From positions 496,001 through 560,000 of the forward strand of contig NZ_CANKXW010000002.1 in assembly GCF_947487805.1 (NCBI RefSeq): a DNA stretch of 64,000 nucleotides. The letters run 5' to 3'. The notes below the pieces were generated by a model. The model was given only the letters and a program-made list of their open reading frames with translations, was not told the DNA's origin and searched no databases. Each line of letters opens with the position of its first letter. The first letter of the stretch is position 1. Shown piece after piece: positions 33,954 through 60,839 of the stretch. Both the position numbers and the translations under genes were made by a program. The DNA is from an uncultured Tateyamaria sp. GTDB taxonomy: Bacteria; Pseudomonadota; Alphaproteobacteria; Rhodobacterales; Rhodobacteraceae.

Positions 33954-34303
33954 TCGCCTGCCTCCAGCGTGCCGCGCACCTCGATGGCATCGTCAAAGAT
34001 CACGATACCGGGTGGTGCGGGATAGGCCACCTCGTCCACATGGCCGAACTGGTCGGGACGGAAGGGCAAGAGGCCCAGCCGGTCAAAGTTGATATCCGCA
34101 AGATCGCGCAGCCTGTCTGGACGGTTGAGATAGGCCCATTCCGCCTTGAGCACGGCCAGGCGGGCGTGGGCGGTGCGGATGTCGCGGTGCAGTTGATCGG
34201 TGCGCGCCAGCGACTCTTGCGTCGCGTAATTCTCGCGGTAGGCCCAGAAAGCGAGGCCGATCACGGCCAGGGTGGTCAGAATGTACAAAACGGTACGCAT
34301 CAT
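33950..34303 (-). CDS. ftsL: Cell division protein FtsL
   Basis: A 117-residue bitopic protein with an N-terminal membrane segment ([20 protein letters not shown]) and a periplasmic coiled coil (about residues 27-70, including [20 protein letters not shown]). It forms the FtsQLB complex. Assignment rests on topology and its place between rsmH and ftsI. Both ends overlap the neighbouring genes by ATGA. Confidence 0.9.
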
Positions 34304-35265
34304 GCGGCCCCCTTGATCTGTGGCATCCCAATGCTCTTGGCGTCGATCTCGCCGCTGGGCGCATCCGTGCGAATGGCCACGCGCAGCTTGGCGGACCGGC
34401 TGCGCGGGTTGGTGGCCAGCTCGTTCGCATCCGGGCCGATGGCCTTGCGGCTTTTGACGGTGAACTGCGCCGGGGCCTGCGTTGTTTCCGGCGCATAACG
34501 GTTGGCGTTGGCCTGTTTGCCCGCACGCGCGGTGAGGAACCGTTTGACCATCCGGTCCTCGACCGAATGAAAGGTCACAACAGCCAGATGCCCGCCGGGT
34601 TTCAACGCGCGCTCGGCGGCCATAAGTCCCTGATAGAGCTCGCCATATTCGTCATTGACCGCGATGCGCAGCGCTTGAAAACTGCGCGTCGCCGGGTGCG
34701 ATTGGCCCGGCTTGGCGCGCGGCAGGCACTTTTCGACAATCGTGGCCAGTTCCAGTGTGGTCGTGATGGGGCGCGCGGCGATGATGGCGCGGGCAATGCG
34801 CCGGCTCGCCCGTTCTTCACCATAGTGATAAAGAATGTCTGCCAACACGGCCTCGTCCGCAGTGTTGACCAGATCGGCCGCCGAGGGGCCGTCCTGGCTC
34901 ATCCGCATGTCGAGGGGGCCGTCCTTCATAAAGGAAAACCCGCGTTCCGCCTGATCCAGCTGCATCGAACTGACGCCAAGGTCGAGGACAACGCCGTCGA
35001 GGTCCTGCGCATAACTGTCCATCTTCGAAAACACGCCTGCCTGCATCACCAACCGGTCGCCGTAGTCGCCCGCCCAAGGCGCGGCCATGTCAAAGGCCAG
35101 CGGATCACGGTCCACCGCAACCACACGCGCGGCCCCTGCCTTGAGCAGCGCGCGGGTATAGCCGCCCGCCCCGAATGTGCCATCCAGCCACGTGCCGCCA
35201 ATTGGTGCGCACTGCGTCAGGATCGCGTCGATCAGTACCGGAATATGTGGCCCCCCAGCCCCCAT
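34300..35265 (-). CDS. rsmH: 16S rRNA (cytosine1402-N4)-methyltransferase RsmH
   Basis: A 321-residue SAM-dependent methyltransferase (old name MraW). The substrate and cofactor motifs are [10 protein letters not shown] at the N-terminus, [32 protein letters not shown] and [16 protein letters not shown]. It is the second gene of the dcw cluster, 2 bp after mraZ. Confidence 0.96.
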
Positions 35266-35267
35266 GA

Positions 35268-35759
35268 TCAGCCCATATCCCCGTCGAGGTAGACTGATGG
35301 ATCGACGTCCGGGTCAAACCCGTCATCGTCGAGGGCGGCAATGCTGGCGTCATAAGTCTCGGGCTGCCAGATCTCGAACGTGTCGCCGGACGAGACGAAA
35401 CGCGCCATGCCATCAAGGCCGATCTTTTCGCGCAGTTTCGCAGGCAAAACGATACGGCCCGTATCGTCCACAACCGTCTCGATGGACTGCGCGCTATAGA
35501 GCCGCTCCATCGCCTTCCGCTTGGCCGAACCGCGCGGGTGTTTGGAGATCTTTTCGTCCACCTCGTCCATGGCTTCGATCGTGAAACCTTCGAGGTAGTC
35601 GCGCGTGGCACCGCCGTAGACGATGATGATGCGGGGCGGCAGGCCGTCCGTCCAGTCGGGATCACAGGCCTCGATCACACGACGAAACGAGGCCGGGATA
35701 GACACCCGCCCCTTTGCGTCCACCTTGTGGTCGCTTTCGCCTCTGAACCTGCGTGCCAC
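35268..35759 (-). CDS. mraZ: Transcriptional regulator MraZ
   Basis: A 163-residue AbrB-like double SpoVT regulator that represses the dcw operon. Two tandem copies of the domain are visible: [19 protein letters not shown] and [18 protein letters not shown]. The start chosen is GTG at 35759 (then [12 protein letters not shown]), which gives the usual family length and has purine-rich AAGGACAAAGGGACGGG upstream. An in-frame GTG at 35873 would add a 38-residue Arg/Lys-rich extension, but it lies in the loop of a 13-bp hairpin and is less likely. Confidence 0.9.
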
Positions 35760-35851
35760 TGTCTTGGCCCGTCCCTTTGTCCTTGCGCCTGCCTGCGCCT
35801 TGCGTCCGCGTGCGCCCCCGCGCTTGAATTCACTGCCCCCGGAAATGGAAA

Positions 35852-35887
35852 CGGCGGGTTGATCTGCTGCCACTGATCAACCCGCCG
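35852..35887. promoter_or_regulatory. 13-bp perfect hairpin in the mraZ leader
   Basis: CGGCGGGTTGATC, a ten-base loop, then GATCAACCCGCCG form a perfect stem 93 bases upstream of the preferred mraZ GTG. The alternative GTG at 35873 lies in the loop. No U-run follows on the minus strand, so it is not a plain terminator; a leader regulatory structure or an mRNA-stabilising hairpin is more likely. Confidence 0.5.
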
Positions 35888-47071: not shown

Positions 47072-47490
47072 GGCAGCTTCCAGACCGAAAAGGTGACCGT
47101 GATGGTCTGGCCGCGCAACGTCTCGCGGGGCATGTCATCTCCGATCAGGCACAGCATCTGCGCCGCGGCACACAAGGGTTTGCCGTCGGGCCGCAGGATC
47201 GACACGCCCTGGGGTGTATCCAGTGGCCAGCCATCCGACAGCGTGTCCGGCATCCAGAACGGCAAAGTGCCATCCGCCAGCAAGCCTTCGAAAAACGCAT
47301 CGAATATCTGCTTGCCGTGCCGATCGAGGACAACGGTCAAATTCTCCTGCGTTGCACCCTGGCTTGTGCGCCGTCTGTACGCGGGCAAGCCGGTATCATT
47401 GCTCAGGCGACGCCGGTTGTCCTGGCGCTGCGCCTGGAACTGTGCCCTCGCCGGGGGCGGCAAGCTGTCCGGCCACACAGGCAGTGTCAT
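47068..47490 (-). CDS. Phage minor tail protein, unnamed
   Basis: A 140-residue protein I cannot place in a named family. A basic Gln/Arg-rich N-terminus (LPPPARAQFQAQRQDNRRR) is followed by a beta-rich part with FFEGLLADGTLPFWMPD and ITVTFSVWKLP. Its place between the tape measure gene and the DUF1833 gene marks it as a distal tail or hub component. Confidence 0.65.
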   Translation of the reverse strand: MTLPVWPDSLPPPARAQFQAQRQDNRRRLSNDTGLPAYRRRTSQGATQENLTVVLDRHGKQIFDAFFEGLLADGTLPFWMPDTLSDGWPLDTPQGVSILRPDGKPLCAAAQMLCLIGDDMPRETLRGQTITVTFSVWKLP

Positions 47491-49706
47491 CGCAGTGCTC
47501 CTCTCCGGGTCAGCCCATACCCGTCAGACAGAAAACGTTGCGCCTGGCCATCGCGAGCCGCCATCCCGTTGGCCACGGCTTCGGACAGGACAAGGCGTTG
47601 CAGACGCTGTCCGTCCGGTTGGCGTTCCTCCTGCATGCGCGCCCCCAGCGGCACGCCAGCGGGCGGCTCGACGATCAGCGTCGTCGACCCCCACCCCATT
47701 GTCGATGATCCGCCCAGGCTCCCGCCATTGGCAAGGCCCGGCAGCGGTGCGCCCGCGTTGATCGCCTCGAGCAAACCGCGATGACGCGCGGTTGCCGCCG
47801 CGTTGATCGCCATTTCGCCCGGTGACATCAGGACCAGCTGTCGATCATCGCGCGACCCGCCGTCGCCAAAGATCATGCCCCCGTCCTTGCGGCCCGGCAG
47901 GCGCGCTGCGGCACCCGGAAAGATCGCACCAAAAAGCGCACCGGCCAAACCACCAATCCCGGAGCTGCCGCCGCCGGAGTTGCCCCACATCAGCGAGGCC
48001 AGCGGGCCTTCGCCCAGCAGGATCGCCTCCCAGGCGACACGCTGCAGCGTGTCGCCAAGGCGTTCCCAGGCCTGTGCCGCCGCATCGCCGCCCTTGGTCA
48101 GGTCCGGGACTACATCCAGAAGCGTGTCGGACAGCAGATCGTACTTGTCCTTGGCATCCTCGACAGCCCGCGTTTCGGACTGCCGCAACAGGATCAGCTC
48201 CTCGATCTCCGCGCGTTCGGCAGCACTGGCGTTTTTGAGCGCATCGCGGTTGCGCAGCATCTCTTTCTGGACCGGATCGGTTTCGCGCAGGATGGACAGC
48301 TCGTCCTTGTACCGCGCGATCAGCTCGGCCACCTCGTCGCGCTCGGCACGGGCCGCACGCGCACCACTGCCGCTGCGGCCAGCGCGGCGCGTCCTTGCCG
48401 TGGTCAGACGCCGGAAATTGTCAACCGCGGCCCGCTGGCCAGCCCGGCCAGCCGCGTTTTGCAAGACGGCCTGCCCCATGACCGCATCTTCGTCCTGCAT
48501 CTGCGGCGTCGCATTGGCGAGCTCAAGCGCGGTGGACAGGGCGATACCAAGGGCGTTGGCCAGACGTTCCGCTTCGGTTGCGCCTGCCCGAATGGAGGAC
48601 GCAACGTCGACCTGCGACAGGGCCAGACCTTCCTCGAAGGCAAGTCGCAATTCATCCTTGAGCTGCTCCGACACATCCAGTGTCTCCAGCATCTCCTCGA
48701 AGGCGCGCCGCTCCGCATCGGCGCGGGCATTGGCATACTCGATACTGTTTTCGCCATGGCTCAGCGCGACCTCGCGCAGGGCGTTTTCCTCGCGCAGTGT
48801 GTCCAGCAACCCAAGGGCCTCGTCCTGCGCGGCCTGGCGCGCGACGGAGGTTTCGATCAGGGCGGACAAACCATCCCGGAGGCTGTCTGTCACGCGGTCC
48901 TGGACGGCCTCAAGGTCGGAATTCAGGGCTACCGCTTCGTCAAGCGCAACCAGCATCTCCTTCAGGGAGGCCAGCTCAGCTTCAGCATCACGCAGATTGT
49001 TTTGAACACCACGTTGTACCAGATCTCGCGCGCCTTGGACGCGCCTCATGGCATCCTGCGCGCTCGCTACAACCTTTTCCTGCGCCTCGATCGCCCTGAG
49101 AAGATCAAACCGTTCCTCGGATCCCGCGCCGGACAACATTACGGCGTTGCTGCGTTGGAGGTTCGCCAGCTTTTCTTCGACGGCACCAATCGCTTCGACC
49201 AGGCCGCCAGCTTCCTCCGAGGATCTGGTCAGCCATTGGACCAGCGCCGCACCTGCGGCAATGCCACCGATCGTCACCAGGTTGATAGGCGACAACAGGC
49301 TCATGAACGCCGTGCCCAACGCGCGCACCGCCTGGCCTGCCCCCATCGGCCCCAGAACCTGCGTGATCTGCGTACCTTGCTGCAGGGCCAACTGCAGCGG
49401 GTTCTGGCCTGCGGCCATCATCACACCGACATCGTTGAACTGGGCGGTCAGGTTGCCAACCGACCCCGCGGCCAGCACATGGGTTTGATTGACACCCCGC
49501 GCCGCCGCAGCGGTGGCATTCAGCGCCGCGCGGGCCTGCGTGGCGTCCGTCGCCAGCGCATCAAGGGATGCCCCAGCCGCGCGACCCTCGCTTTGGACAC
49601 GGTCAAGACCGCCCGAGAGCCCGTCCACGGCCCCCTTTGTTTCCCGGATCGCCGCCTGTGCCTGTCTGCCGTCCGCCGTGATCCGCGCATGGTATTGAAG
49701 TGTCAT
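47487..49706 (-). CDS. Phage tail tape measure protein
   Basis: A 739-residue tape measure protein that sets tail length and is ejected with the DNA. The N-terminal coiled coil (ATDATQARAALNATAAAARG) leads to the conserved NDVGVMMAAGQNPLQLALQQ and a hydrophobic segment (INLVTIGGIAAGAALVQWL, about residues 140-160). A long coiled-coil middle follows, and then the C-terminal GGMIFGDGGSRDD with SPGEMAINAAATARHRG. At this size a tail of roughly 100 nm is expected, using the usual 1.5 angstrom per residue rule. Confidence 0.9.
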   Translation of the reverse strand: MTLQYHARITADGRQAQAAIRETKGAVDGLSGGLDRVQSEGRAAGASLDALATDATQARAALNATAAAARGVNQTHVLAAGSVGNLTAQFNDVGVMMAAGQNPLQLALQQGTQITQVLGPMGAGQAVRALGTAFMSLLSPINLVTIGGIAAGAALVQWLTRSSEEAGGLVEAIGAVEEKLANLQRSNAVMLSGAGSEERFDLLRAIEAQEKVVASAQDAMRRVQGARDLVQRGVQNNLRDAEAELASLKEMLVALDEAVALNSDLEAVQDRVTDSLRDGLSALIETSVARQAAQDEALGLLDTLREENALREVALSHGENSIEYANARADAERRAFEEMLETLDVSEQLKDELRLAFEEGLALSQVDVASSIRAGATEAERLANALGIALSTALELANATPQMQDEDAVMGQAVLQNAAGRAGQRAAVDNFRRLTTARTRRAGRSGSGARAARAERDEVAELIARYKDELSILRETDPVQKEMLRNRDALKNASAAERAEIEELILLRQSETRAVEDAKDKYDLLSDTLLDVVPDLTKGGDAAAQAWERLGDTLQRVAWEAILLGEGPLASLMWGNSGGGSSGIGGLAGALFGAIFPGAAARLPGRKDGGMIFGDGGSRDDRQLVLMSPGEMAINAAATARHRGLLEAINAGAPLPGLANGGSLGGSSTMGWGSTTLIVEPPAGVPLGARMQEERQPDGQRLQRLVLSEAVANGMAARDGQAQRFLSDGYGLTRRGALR

Positions 49707-49707
49707 T

Positions 49708-50070
49708 TCAATCCTCGTTCAAACCACGCTTTGCGCCCTGTTCGATGATGCGGATCTGATCCCAAAGATGCGGCGTGACCGCGATGCCGGCCATGCGCAA
49801 TTCCGCCTCGGCCTGGACCACGTCGAGCCCCAGAAACACGGTCTGCGCATTGGGGCGCGGATTGATCCGCCACAGATCGCTGATCCGCAGAAAGGCCTCG
49901 ACCGCCGCGACGTGTTCCGGCCACAGACCATCCTCGGGCATCGCGGTGTCCGGCGTGAGGAGATCTGGCGGAATGCCCCAAAACTCCGCGTCTGCCTGCA
50001 ATTCGGACCGGACCGATCGCGCATCGGCAAAGAGTGTGCCATTGGCCCACGCGCGCCCGGCCCATTTCAG
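49708..50070 (-). CDS. Tail assembly chaperone, GT-type part (DUF1799), made by -1 frameshift
   Basis: A 120-residue frame with DUF1799 features (LWPEHVAAVEAFLRISDLW, then IAVTPHLWDQIRIIEQGA). It has no ATG or GTG at a credible place; the first usable start, a TTG at 50001, would cut off conserved-looking sequence (WAGRAWANGTLFADARS). The frame is open back across the end of the preceding gene and joins it exactly at GGGAAAC, so it is most simply read as the second half of a 223-residue fusion, like lambda gpG-T. A CTG at 50070 overlapping the stop of the upstream frame is the alternative start. Confidence 0.75.
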   Translation of the reverse strand: MKWAGRAWANGTLFADARSVRSELQADAEFWGIPPDLLTPDTAMPEDGLWPEHVAAVEAFLRISDLWRINPRPNAQTVFLGLDVVQAEAELRMAGIAVTPHLWDQIRIIEQGAKRGLNED

Positions 50071-50378
50071 TTTCCCGAAGCGCCCTGGATCCGGCCCACA
50101 CGGAACCCGACCAGCATGGCCGCGCGCAGATCAGCTGTCTTGAGGAACGGCTCCTTCAGCACCTCAAAGGCGATCGGCTCCTGCATCTCGTTCACCACGT
50201 CGCCGAGATCGACCAGGACCGCGCCCAAAAGCGCCTTGACACCGTCCTCGGGATTTGGGGTGTCCATCAAGTCATCGATCTCGTCATCCGGCAGCAGCTT
50301 GAATGTCGCGTCAAACGTCTGACCGTCGGCGGCGGTGCAGGTGGTGGTGAATTGGCGGTTGTTGCTCATGACAAACAC
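50067..50378 (-). CDS. Tail assembly chaperone, G-type
   Basis: A 103-residue protein lying between tail tube and tape measure, the position of lambda gpG. It is acidic and mostly helical (DDEIDDLMDTPNPEDGVKAL, VLVDLGDVVNEMQEPIAFEV). The start is GTG at 50378, preceded at good distance by AAGGAG; the ATG at 50369 is too far from it. The last codons before the stop form the slippery site, so most ribosomes make this short form and some make the fusion. Confidence 0.8.
   Translation of the reverse strand: MFVMSNNRQFTTTCTAADGQTFDATFKLLPDDEIDDLMDTPNPEDGVKALLGAVLVDLGDVVNEMQEPIAFEVLKEPFLKTADLRAAMLVGFRVGRIQGASGN
50070..50076 (-). other. Programmed -1 frameshift slippery site GGGAAAC
   Basis: The zero frame reads TCG GGA AAC TGA, so the heptamer G GGA AAC is in the X XXY YYZ phase. 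A slip of one base back gives CTG AAA TGG and enters the open DUF1799 frame. The stop follows the site directly, which favours slippage. A 5-bp hairpin (50013-50027) lies about 43 bases downstream, too far to be a classical stimulator. Confidence 0.8.
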
Positions 50379-50396: not shown

Positions 50397-51326
50397 TCAG
50401 GTGAAGGTGAGGGTCCATTGGTCGTTGCCGGTAACCGGCAATGGCCGCAGGTTGAGAGGCCATTCCATGATGCCTTGCGCCTCGGTCGGTGCACCGGGGC
50501 GCATGACCTGGGCGGCGGGCACGGCAAATGCGACGCGCCGCCCGTCTGCGGTTCCGTGGTTCAACGCCAGCGCAACAGTTTCCTGATCGCGTGCCAGGGC
50601 GAATGGGTCCAAGGTGGACAGTGCATCCGCTTCGATCTGCGTGGTGACGCTGTCAGACCGGTCGACAATCACGATCTCGTCCTTGCCAACGAGGAACCGG
50701 CCCTCGACTTCATTGCCCATGGCCAACGTGAACGAACGCATTTCATGCGGCGTGCCATTGATCGTGAAGGTTGGCGTGTTCGCTTTGGACGCGACCTGCG
50801 GTTTCTGCAGCCCCGACAGGTTTGGCGTGACCGCGACCTGATCGGTCGGCTTGGTCCAGAGGCCCGTAACCGTGCATTCCAGCATCGGAATGCCGGACGC
50901 GTTCACCACCACATTTGCGTCACCGCGTGCACCGACCAGGGCAAACAGGATGCCATCGATGTTGAGGTGGTAGGTCGCGCTGTCGAACCCACCCGAGATC
51001 GGATTGTATTGCACCGAGGTGTTCGCGGTGATGGTTTCGGCCAGCCCCAGCGACCGCAACACCGGCGCAAATTGCGGTGCGGTACCGGCAACACCCGACC
51101 CGACCAGTTCGACTGTGAAGGTCATGACCATGTGCAGATCTGCCGGGATCGTGCCAGACGCGCCCAGCCAGGGCGTGTCGTGGCCCCGATCGACGTCCTG
51201 CCCCTCCATGGGCCGGATGCCCACGTTGATGCAGTGCAGCGCGTTGCCAGCACCCGGCCCGGCATCGACACCATAGGTGTCCTCCAGGGCCGCAACCAAA
51301 ACCTTCTTTCGCCAGTATAGCTGCAT
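50397..51326 (-). CDS. Phage tail tube protein
   Basis: A 309-residue beta-rich major tail protein of the B3/RcapMu type. It opens with QLYWRKKVLVAALEDTYGVD, a pattern usual in this family, followed by FTVELVGSGVAGTAPQFAPV and a C-terminal domain (PLPVTGNDQWTLTF). It assembles into the non-contractile tube and is followed by the chaperone pair, as expected. There is no sheath gene nearby. Confidence 0.85.
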   Translation of the reverse strand: MQLYWRKKVLVAALEDTYGVDAGPGAGNALHCINVGIRPMEGQDVDRGHDTPWLGASGTIPADLHMVMTFTVELVGSGVAGTAPQFAPVLRSLGLAETITANTSVQYNPISGGFDSATYHLNIDGILFALVGARGDANVVVNASGIPMLECTVTGLWTKPTDQVAVTPNLSGLQKPQVASKANTPTFTINGTPHEMRSFTLAMGNEVEGRFLVGKDEIVIVDRSDSVTTQIEADALSTLDPFALARDQETVALALNHGTADGRRVAFAVPAAQVMRPGAPTEAQGIMEWPLNLRPLPVTGNDQWTLTFT

Positions 51327-58224: not shown

Positions 58225-59037
58225 TCAGCGCGGCACGTTGAACTCGAAATTGCCGATTAACAGTTCGGCGCGTTTGCCACGTGACTGGTCGGTCAGACCC
58301 GCGGTGTAGGTTGTTTGAACTTCGTGAACCTCGGCCCATGCAAAAAGCGCACGGATCTCCGGCACATCATTGATCGAGAGCAGGAACCGTCCGTTCATGC
58401 CGGACAACAGCTGGGCAAGTTGCTCAAAACGATCACGGTCAAACACGTCCGGGCCATAGTCGCTCTCGTGGCCCCAATAGGGCGGGTCCAGATAAAACAG
58501 GGCGGTCTTGCGATCGACACGGGATATGAATTCGGCGCAATCGATGTTCATCACGGTGACGCCTGCAAGGCGCGTGTGCAAAGCCTCCAGATCACGTTCC
58601 AGCGTCGTGAGATTGAACCGCGCCGAGCGATCAGGAGACAGGCCAAAGGTCTGTCCGGTCACTTTGCCGCCAAAACTACATCGCTGCAGATAGAGGAAGC
58701 GCGCCGCCCTTTGCATATCCGTCAACGTGTTCGGATCGGTCGCCACCAGCCGTGCAAAATTGGCTTGTGTCGTTATCTGAAACCGCAACAGATCAAGGAA
58801 AGCGACGTAGTGCTCCTGAAGAACGCGGAACAGCGTGTAGATCTCGCGATGCTTGTCATTGATCAGTTCGGACTTGGCTGCTGATTTGCGCCGCAGGAAG
58901 ATACCACCCATCCCGACGAACGGCTCCGCATAGGTGTCATGTTTGTCCTGATCGATGATCGCGCAGATGCGCTTCGCCAGGTTGCGCTTGCCACCGAGCC
59001 ACGGGGCAATGGGATTGACAGAAACGTCTGTTGGCAT
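58225..59037 (-). CDS. Phage D12-class DNA adenine methyltransferase
   Basis: A 270-residue N6-adenine methylase of the Dam (alpha/D12) class. The N-terminal PWLGGKRNLAKRI, the SAM motif EPFVGMGGIFLR (residues 38-49) and the catalytic DPPYWG (184-189) are in family order. It may protect phage DNA from host restriction. The ATG at 59037 has AAAAGG upstream and gives a typical N-terminus. The frame stays open back to an ATG at 59193 that overlaps the terminase stop (TGATG), which would add 52 residues with no known domain. Confidence 0.88.
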   Translation of the reverse strand: MPTDVSVNPIAPWLGGKRNLAKRICAIIDQDKHDTYAEPFVGMGGIFLRRKSAAKSELINDKHREIYTLFRVLQEHYVAFLDLLRFQITTQANFARLVATDPNTLTDMQRAARFLYLQRCSFGGKVTGQTFGLSPDRSARFNLTTLERDLEALHTRLAGVTVMNIDCAEFISRVDRKTALFYLDPPYWGHESDYGPDVFDRDRFEQLAQLLSGMNGRFLLSINDVPEIRALFAWAEVHEVQTTYTAGLTDQSRGKRAELLIGNFEFNVPR

Positions 59038-59192
59038 GGAAGAGAACCTTTTCTTAATGCCCTGCAGCACATGATGCGCGCGGGGCAGCCGTTCTCGTTG
59101 TGCGGTTGGCGGGGGCTCGTTGAAATTGCCCCGTGTTGAACGCACGCCAAATGCGTTCGACCCCCACCCGGCAATCACCAGATCAGAAGCCA

Positions 59193-60839
59193 TCACATCA
59201 CCCCTCCCCGGAGGCCAGCGCCCATCGGCGGTCGCCACCAGTCGCGGGTGTCTGTGTCATAAGGATCGTCGCCGTCCGCCAACGCGCTGCGCTGGTCTCT
59301 GGCGGTCTCGTAGCCGTATTCGGTCACTTCGGATCGGCTGGCGAAGAAGGCCAGTGCGCCCGCAATGGCGCTGTCGCCGTGCCGATCAAGGCCATCGCTG
59401 CCCTTGAACCGGAACTTGGCCGGAACGCGCACGATCCCGTCCACGTATTGCAGCGCCTGGTGATCGCGCAGCACGTCCTCATGCTTGGGCAACAGGATCG
59501 TGCGGTCGGTGAACGCCTCGATGTAATGTGGCATGTGCATCTCGTACCATTGCCGCGAGAAGCTCACCTCGACGATGCGGTTGCCGTAGCGCCTGACCGC
59601 CTCTTCGGCCAGGAACGCCCCGTTGCCGCCCTTGTCCATCGCGCCCTTCTGGAAGTTCGGAACGCGGTCGAGGAGCCATTTCAGGACGAACCACTGGGCC
59701 TTGAATGGCATGTTTCGCAGCTCGACCACCAATTTGGTCCGGCGAACCAGGTCAACGCCCTGCTCGAGGATCACGATATCGGTCGCATCGCCGGTGCGGG
59801 CAAAGTCTTCACCCATGAAGTGCTGGCGATCTTCATCAAGGCTTTTGACAACGGGTCCAAGGTGCTCTTTGCACCACGCGATCGCGGCCTTTTCCATTTC
59901 CGCATCGTCGAGATTGCGGAACGCATCCCCTTGGGTCCAGCGTTTGAACGGGATCCCCTGTTGCATGCAGGCCTCGATCTGGACGCGCGTCAGGGCGGCA
60001 CCGTCCATCTCGGACGGAACCGCGTCCAGCTCTTGTTCCATGGCGGCAATGCGCGGGCCATAGGAGCTGCGCAGTTGCGCCTCCCATGCCGCTTCGGCCT
60101 CGGGTGACCATGTCTTGCCAGACATCAGGCACACGCGCTTGTAGAGGCCGTTTTTGACGGCGTCGCCAAAGGTGTAGGAATGGACCTTGTAGCCGTTCTT
60201 GCCCGCGCGTGCCTCGCGGATCAGCTCGTTGAACGCATTGAGCGCCCCGTTGTGGGTCGAGATGATACGGACCTTGCCGCCCCAGATGAGCATCGCGTTT
60301 ACGGCGTCGATCACCTCGCGCACGTCCTTGTGGAAGGCCGCCTCGTCGATGACCACCGTGCCTTGCAGACCGCGGATGTTGGCCGGATTGGAACTCAGCG
60401 CCTCGACACGGTGGCCGGATGCGAACTTGATCCGATAGGCGGTGATGAACTTTGTGCTGCCGTCCTCCTGCGCGTCTTCGAACAGGAACTCCTCGATCGG
60501 GTGCGCCTCCTGGGCAAGCGCCTTCGCAAAATTGGCGACATAGCCGATGAACTCGCGGCCCTTGTCCTTGGTGTCGCCGATGTAGAAGACGTTTTGTCCG
60601 CCCGCGCTGCGCTTGGCCGCCGCGATCAGGGTATCGCCCAGGGCTTCGGCAAAGGTGATGCCCGTCCGCCGGCCTTTTTCGCAAACCTTGAGATCGCCGT
60701 CATCCGCCAGCCATTCCGACTGGTGTTCCATCAGGATGCCATCGGCCAGCGGGTCGAAATCATCCGGCAATGTGCCACCACGCGGCAGCGCGTCGGGCAG
60801 TTCGTCCGGGTTGCGGGACAGGACCGGCGCGTTTGTCAT
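59193..60839 (-). CDS. Terminase large subunit (Mu gp28-like)
   Basis: A 548-residue packaging ATPase and nuclease. Walker A-like CEKGRRTGITFAEA is at about residues 53-66, Walker B TVVIDEAAF at 161-169, and the RNase H-like nuclease begins near GEDFARTGDATDIVILEQG. The C-terminal GSDGLDRHGDSAIAGALAFF is typical of Mu-like gp28. The ATG at 60839 overlaps the previous stop (ATGA). Confidence 0.92.
   Translation of the reverse strand: MTNAPVLSRNPDELPDALPRGGTLPDDFDPLADGILMEHQSEWLADDGDLKVCEKGRRTGITFAEALGDTLIAAAKRSAGGQNVFYIGDTKDKGREFIGYVANFAKALAQEAHPIEEFLFEDAQEDGSTKFITAYRIKFASGHRVEALSSNPANIRGLQGTVVIDEAAFHKDVREVIDAVNAMLIWGGKVRIISTHNGALNAFNELIREARAGKNGYKVHSYTFGDAVKNGLYKRVCLMSGKTWSPEAEAAWEAQLRSSYGPRIAAMEQELDAVPSEMDGAALTRVQIEACMQQGIPFKRWTQGDAFRNLDDAEMEKAAIAWCKEHLGPVVKSLDEDRQHFMGEDFARTGDATDIVILEQGVDLVRRTKLVVELRNMPFKAQWFVLKWLLDRVPNFQKGAMDKGGNGAFLAEEAVRRYGNRIVEVSFSRQWYEMHMPHYIEAFTDRTILLPKHEDVLRDHQALQYVDGIVRVPAKFRFKGSDGLDRHGDSAIAGALAFFASRSEVTEYGYETARDQRSALADGDDPYDTDTRDWWRPPMGAGLRGGVM

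Follow-up and report, generated by a model that had tools for sequence, protein, structure and literature searches.

A probable programmed -1 ribosomal frameshift joining a tail assembly chaperone to DUF1799 in a Mu-like prophage of Tateyamaria and in related phage loci

The DNA analysed here is a stretch of 64,000 nucleotides (nt), referred to as the window, from an uncultured Tateyamaria sp. of the Rhodobacteraceae (assembly GCF_947487805.1, contig NZ_CANKXW010000002.1, positions 496,001 to 560,000), in which a prophage carries two overlapping reading frames on the minus strand between its tail tube and tape measure genes. The upstream gene (50067..50378), a putative analogue of lambda G, encodes a predicted chaperone of 103 amino acids (aa) from a GTG start, and its 3' end reads ATC CAG GGC GCT TCG GGA AAC TGA. 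The heptamer G GGA AAC (50070..50076) stands in the X XXY YYZ phase and is directly adjoined on its 3' side by the 0-frame UGA stop (50067..50069). A -1 slip on it enters the DUF1799 frame (49708..50070), a putative analogue of lambda T, where the first post-slip codon is CTG at 50070-50068 and the reading continues as CTG AAA TGG GCC. Open between 50130 and 49708, this frame holds 120 aa after the slip, giving a predicted fusion of 103 + 120 = 223 aa. Its first ATG, GTG or TTG after 50130 is the TTG at 50001, and the open reading frame (ORF) begun there encodes 97 aa. An earlier note on this DNA, made from its letters, had described the same gene end, the canonical heptamer in the phase leading into DUF1799, the predicted products of 103 and 223 residues and the truncated ORF of 97 residues, and all of these were confirmed by the sequence and coordinates. 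Its claim that the DUF1799 frame stays open through the overlap also held, and no start precedes TTG 50001; the further claim that the frame has no ATG of its own is not strictly correct, as one in-frame ATG lies at 49941, which is residue 44 counted from the slip, and another further downstream, both of them internal.

The product of the -1 frame matched DUF1799 (PF08809) with an expectation value (E) of 1e-9 and 38.9 bits, against a curated cut-off of 26, and phrog_680 with E 3e-15. The upstream protein of the window had no Pfam match in the profile search, Phage_TAC_4 (PF08748) included, and 14 of 19 of its relatives matched Phage_TAC_4 at E up to 1, the best at 8.3e-7. Its homologues align from the same start, these starts having been chosen by script. 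A profile of G compared by sequence with solved structures gave nothing significant (best E 0.66), and Foldseek found nothing in the PDB for the DUF1799 part at E up to 0.001. The DUF1799 fold is thus unmatched among PDB structures, from which novelty of the fold does not follow. The families phrog_569 and phrog_680 are both labelled as tail length tape measure protein, and their members here are the chaperone halves.

For comparison, DUF1799 was collected from genomes of relatives (5 of 148), the family (26 of 394), the class, taken from named relatives to be Alphaproteobacteria (18 of 385), and the phylum, likewise taken to be Pseudomonadota (30 of 398), together with 43 loci on viral contigs, 6 on genome contigs and 5 phage records, three of which were retrieved. 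The 132 loci (L001-L132) were brought to 97 by collapsing 84 close loci to 49 on identical junctions and leaving the other 48 uncollapsed, L091 and L105 among the latter looking the same; a reduced set of 85 loci at <85% identity comprised 41 close to the window and 44 distant. Part of the loci were found with search patterns that included KWAGRAWA, two (L103 and L132) were retained though under the Pfam cut-off, the junction of L087 was assigned by hand, and 9 of the 39 match rows of one search yielded no locus and stand outside the counts. Slippery sites were accepted if they had the form XXXAAAZ and followed 60 or more open codons, and each locus proved to have exactly one.

A heptamer of the form XXXAAAZ in the -1 phase was present at the end of the upstream ORF in 97 of 97 DUF1799 loci, as 50 AAAAAAC, 45 GGGAAAC, one AAAAAAT (L090) and one AAAAAAG (L125). 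The comparison of homologues that the earlier note proposed was therefore in its favour, the heptamer and the overlap being kept throughout. Same-phase positions inside the upstream ORFs of the 85 reduced loci (n=7395) contained three XXXAAAZ and 16 of any XXXYYYZ form. The X of the heptamer, which is the frame-0 wobble base, matched in 85 of 85 loci against 20.55 expected from the third-position composition of each locus; the filter itself demanded the X match and Y = A, and the force of the argument lies in zero loci having failed it. The codon preceding AAZ was GGA in all 41 Gly loci (background 109/1442; p 7e-44) and AAA in all 44 Lys loci (background 208/556; p 2e-18), p values which ignore shared ancestry. 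The GGG and AAA versions swap between loci despite the change from Gly to Lys, a pattern that points to selection on the slippery site rather than on the encoded amino acids.

The second slippery codon was AAC in 95 of the 97 loci, regardless of the stop codon or its distance, and none of the explanations tried accounts for this preference. The possibility that a host Lys tRNA with anticodon CUU lies behind the avoidance of AAG was unsupported: the Lys UUU tRNA was the sole Lys tRNA recovered, and nothing matched the CUU pattern. This survey gave 39 matches, read as 30 and 9 loci, with 8 of those 9 yielding their own tRNA (a contig-end partial excepted), and its list was visibly incomplete, lacking for example an Ile or Tyr tRNA.

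Conservation of the DUF1799-frame protein starts at the first post-slip codon. All 41 close loci have Leu as the first residue after the slip, and their codons 3-8 show 88-93% identity. All 22 sequences of one alignment (A3) carry LKWAGRAWA unchanged, an invariance partly built in by the KWAGRAWA search pattern, and the stretch varies in the wider set of loci. Between -45 and +24 nt of the slip, the DUF1799 frame had no ATG, GTG or TTG in 73 of 85 loci; the first downstream start fell at a median of residue 30, at positions varying among the 85 loci, and one locus had none. The pattern named in the earlier note as speaking against a frameshift, i.e. a start of its own for DUF1799, conserved beyond the G stop, together with absence of the heptamer, was looked for in the homologue loci and was not seen.

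The stop of the upstream frame directly adjoined the heptamer in 86 of the 97 loci (76 TGA, 7 TAA and 3 TAG), in 75 of the 85 reduced loci and in 38 of the 41 close relatives of the window; in the other 11 of 97 it lay 9-105 nt further downstream, with the heptamer still present. When Arg stood at the second post-slip codon, it was encoded by AGA or AGG 14 times and by CGN 6 times, against 67 and 700 elsewhere in DUF1799 (85 loci, p 1.2e-10), and the close loci gave 8 and 3 against 30 and 315 (p 1.1e-6). AGR at this codon preserves the 0-frame TGA, as selection on the abutting stop would have it. Against this, 9 of the 11 loci whose stop lies further on still have Leu as the first post-slip residue. 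Leu therefore has an importance of its own, and the abutment may in part be a consequence of it. The mean distance from slippery site to in-frame stop is given as 26 nt for a training set that contained 2,476 frameshifted genes, and for the 28 phages of Xu et al. as 36 nt (PMC10885494); in lambda it is 15 nt. An abutting stop may make frameshifting less frequent, as would suit a phage that needs only small amounts of the fusion. A reading specific to UGA, and hence to RF2 only, was weakened, because UGA made up 76 of the 86 abutting stops but only 8 of 17 in the named isolates described below (8 TAA and 1 TAG).

Candidate stimulatory signals were found on both sides of the heptamer. In the window, a predicted hairpin (50010..50063, minus strand) begins 6 nt 3' of it, and a weak Shine-Dalgarno (SD)-like AGGG (50083..50086, minus strand), a possible stimulator, lies 6 nt 5' of it. 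The fold of 50007-50063 had -32.8 kcal/mol and z -2.95, with 1 of 200 shuffles as good, its boundaries having been picked after a 131-nt fold. Among the close loci, mean folding z was -1.18 at offset 0, -0.16 at +15 and 0.22 at +30; the distant loci gave -1.46, -0.45 and -0.20 at these offsets and -0.59 at +60. A strong hairpin 3-10 nt after the heptamer was predicted in 50 of 85 loci; 40 codon-shuffled sets gave 18.6 on average and never more than 29, and other offsets gave 8-22. No fixed-geometry helix exceeded the control offsets when stem covariation was sought in the 85 loci, which leaves energy statistics as the argument for the hairpin. Predicted anti-SD pairing at -24..-7 averaged -3.96 kcal/mol over these loci against -2.11 in in-gene control windows, and 78% of loci fell under their own control median; windows 3' of the heptamer were likewise somewhat low, so composition plays a part. 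Both the hairpin and the SD-like signals peak where they are expected for a frameshift.

The site, its phase, its conservation and the gene order can be read in the sequences, and from them we infer the slippage, its rate, its products and the roles of G and GT. These data together suggested that a programmed -1 ribosomal frameshift very probably lets a single start serve two tail assembly chaperones. The majority of ribosomes would decode GGA AAC and terminate at UGA to give G of 103 aa, and a minority would slip back by one base, with tRNA-Gly and tRNA-Asn re-pairing to GGG AAA. The slipped ribosomes would then read CUG AAA UGG and onwards into the 223-aa G-DUF1799 fusion (GT). By analogy with lambda, G would bind the tape measure protein, and GT would recruit tube subunits through its T part. 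Some observations weigh against this reading. In 12 of 85 loci an ATG, GTG or TTG does occur between -45 and +24 nt, at varied positions; the fold of the window is unremarkable when calculated over 56 nt without the distal arm (z -0.34) or over 131 nt (z -1.14); and the isolate Shelby, one of 17, lacks an X XXY YYZ heptamer.

Termination at the UGA followed by reinitiation on the overlapping CUG, or on another weak start, would instead release a free DUF1799 protein. The stop and the CUG do overlap in CUGA, the upstream region is enriched in SD-like pairing, and the records of Rhodobacter phage RC1 and Rhodovulum phage RS1 start the downstream coding sequence (CDS) at that very codon (L085 2992-3336 and L086 2992-3336), a placement that is probably an annotation artefact. 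CUG is, however, a poor start codon, and reinitiation leaves unexplained the matching wobble X, the fixed GGA and AAA codons and the exchange between GGG and AAA; moreover, the heptamer is retained in L005, L059 and L062 though their stop lies 36 nt further on. We consider this explanation very improbable.

Still less credit can be given to two separate genes, with DUF1799 made from the internal TTG 50001 (97 aa) or a similar start. Public records often present the pair in this way, as in the truncated DUF1799 CDS of ThpS-P1 and the separate second CDS of most of the 17 isolates, but an internal start would lose the conserved residues directly after the slip, and the first in-frame start, at its median of residue 30, is inconstant between loci. 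Transcriptional slippage at an A-run, producing a fusion mRNA, is just as hard to credit: the AAAAAAC sites do hold a run of six A, and of seven in some loci, but GGGAAAC, the version found in the window and in 45 of 97 loci, has runs of at most four (GGGG in some, AAA), and the two versions replace each other.

The junction was also read in 17 named phage isolates, two of them the cyanophages S-CBS1 and S-CBS3, which were hand-picked and not randomly drawn from lists of 841 and 1092 records. Fourteen had AAAAAAC or GGGAAAC, Jahat AAAGGGT, MK21 GGGAAAA and Shelby no canonical heptamer (AAAAGTT). The stop adjoined the heptamer in all 16 isolates bearing one, and by reading, the G stop of Shelby is at the corresponding place. 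A joined frameshift CDS appears in the Shelby record alone; the other 16 give the second part as a CDS of its own, in many cases shortened, or lack it (HK639 and YP10S2). The Jahat record names the pair Phage TAC 4 and DUF1799. That automatic annotation misses such frameshifts has already been noted (PMC7660901).

The gene order in the window is tube, G, T and tape measure. Upstream of the pair lies the tail tube protein gene (50397..51326, minus strand; PF18906 Phage_tube_2, E 1.7e-7), and downstream the tail tape measure protein gene (47487..49706, minus strand; PF06791 TMP_2, E 1.2e-12). The Mu-like label given in the earlier note fits the head genes Portal_Mu, Phage_Mu_F, Mu-like_Pro and Phage_Mu_Gp36. 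A D12-class adenine DNA methyltransferase gene lies among these head genes (58225-59238, minus strand; PF02086, E 1.3e-24). Two ORFs at 34300-35873 (minus strand) resemble by eye what we take to be RsmH and MraZ of a cell-division cluster, near which the prophage may lie. Phage Mu, whose tail is contractile, likewise has a frameshift in its tail assembly genes. In Mu it is a -2 frameshift (PMC5009743).

The likeness to lambda gpG/gpGT (G GGA AAG), which the earlier note had drawn, appears well founded at the level of sequence, given the heptamer and overlap in 97 of 97 loci and the Phage_TAC_4 matches among relatives of G; the two systems have in common the gene order, the -1 direction, the GGGAAAN type of site and a chaperone pair that immediately precedes the tape measure gene. 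In lambda itself, G attaches to the tape measure protein and GT draws in tube subunits by way of its T part (PMC5009743). Burkholderia phage KL1 has GGGAAAC immediately 5' of TGA at gp18/gp19, as we saw in its sequence and as was predicted in print (PMC3483164), but differs by an extra gene between gp19 and the tape measure gene; this likeness is one of junction, DUF1799 membership aside. The Drexlerviridae phages with DUF1799 (Shfl1, JohannLBurckhardt, Jahat and Shelby) share the chaperone/DUF1799 pair with the G stop in the same place, but Jahat, with AAAGGGT, and Shelby, which lacks a canonical heptamer, depart at the slip site. A stop directly after the heptamer is also a feature of the Rous sarcoma virus type of -1 site, named as a natural case (PMC4373837), although that virus is eukaryotic and its genes are unrelated. 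Further papers give AAAAAAC and GGGAAAC for Caulobacter phages (PMC3556154), predict a T_TTT_TTC site in Mu-like phages of Pseudomonas, where the downstream ORF may have an AUG (PMC4378225), mention a tail frameshift of the -1 type in phages of Rhodobacter capsulatus (PMC4882933) and report frameshifting measured at 6 and 7% for a chaperone cluster (PMC3711429). One paper, the only one in the collection searched that names DUF1799, lists a DUF1799 gene beside a chaperone, and the word frameshift is absent from it (PMC9658991). Our literature search, which covered the papers cited and otherwise listings and outside of which Xu et al. 2004 fell, found no paper calling DUF1799 frameshift-dependent as a family.

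Taken singly, the junction of the window is a new instance of the lambda G/GT kind, a mechanism already known. What specialists might expect less are the family-wide abutting stop and the apparent dependence of DUF1799 as a family on frameshifting, as judged from its sequences. A bolder and rather doubtful proposal is that the abutting stop itself belongs to the mechanism: the shift would compete directly with termination, host release-factor activity would set the G:GT ratio and thereby tail assembly, the stop would keep unshifted ribosomes out of the hairpin, and DUF1799 would be a family existing only as a frameshift product. The loci offer a natural series, with a stop distance of 0 in 86 of 97 and 9-105 nt in 11 of 97, for asking if an adjacent stop tunes bacterial -1 frameshifting. 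The frameshift looks fixed across a large phage family often recorded as two separate genes, which exposes the phage records where the DUF1799 part is split off, truncated or missing, and a domain of unknown function gains a likely identity as the frameshift-only half of a tail chaperone.
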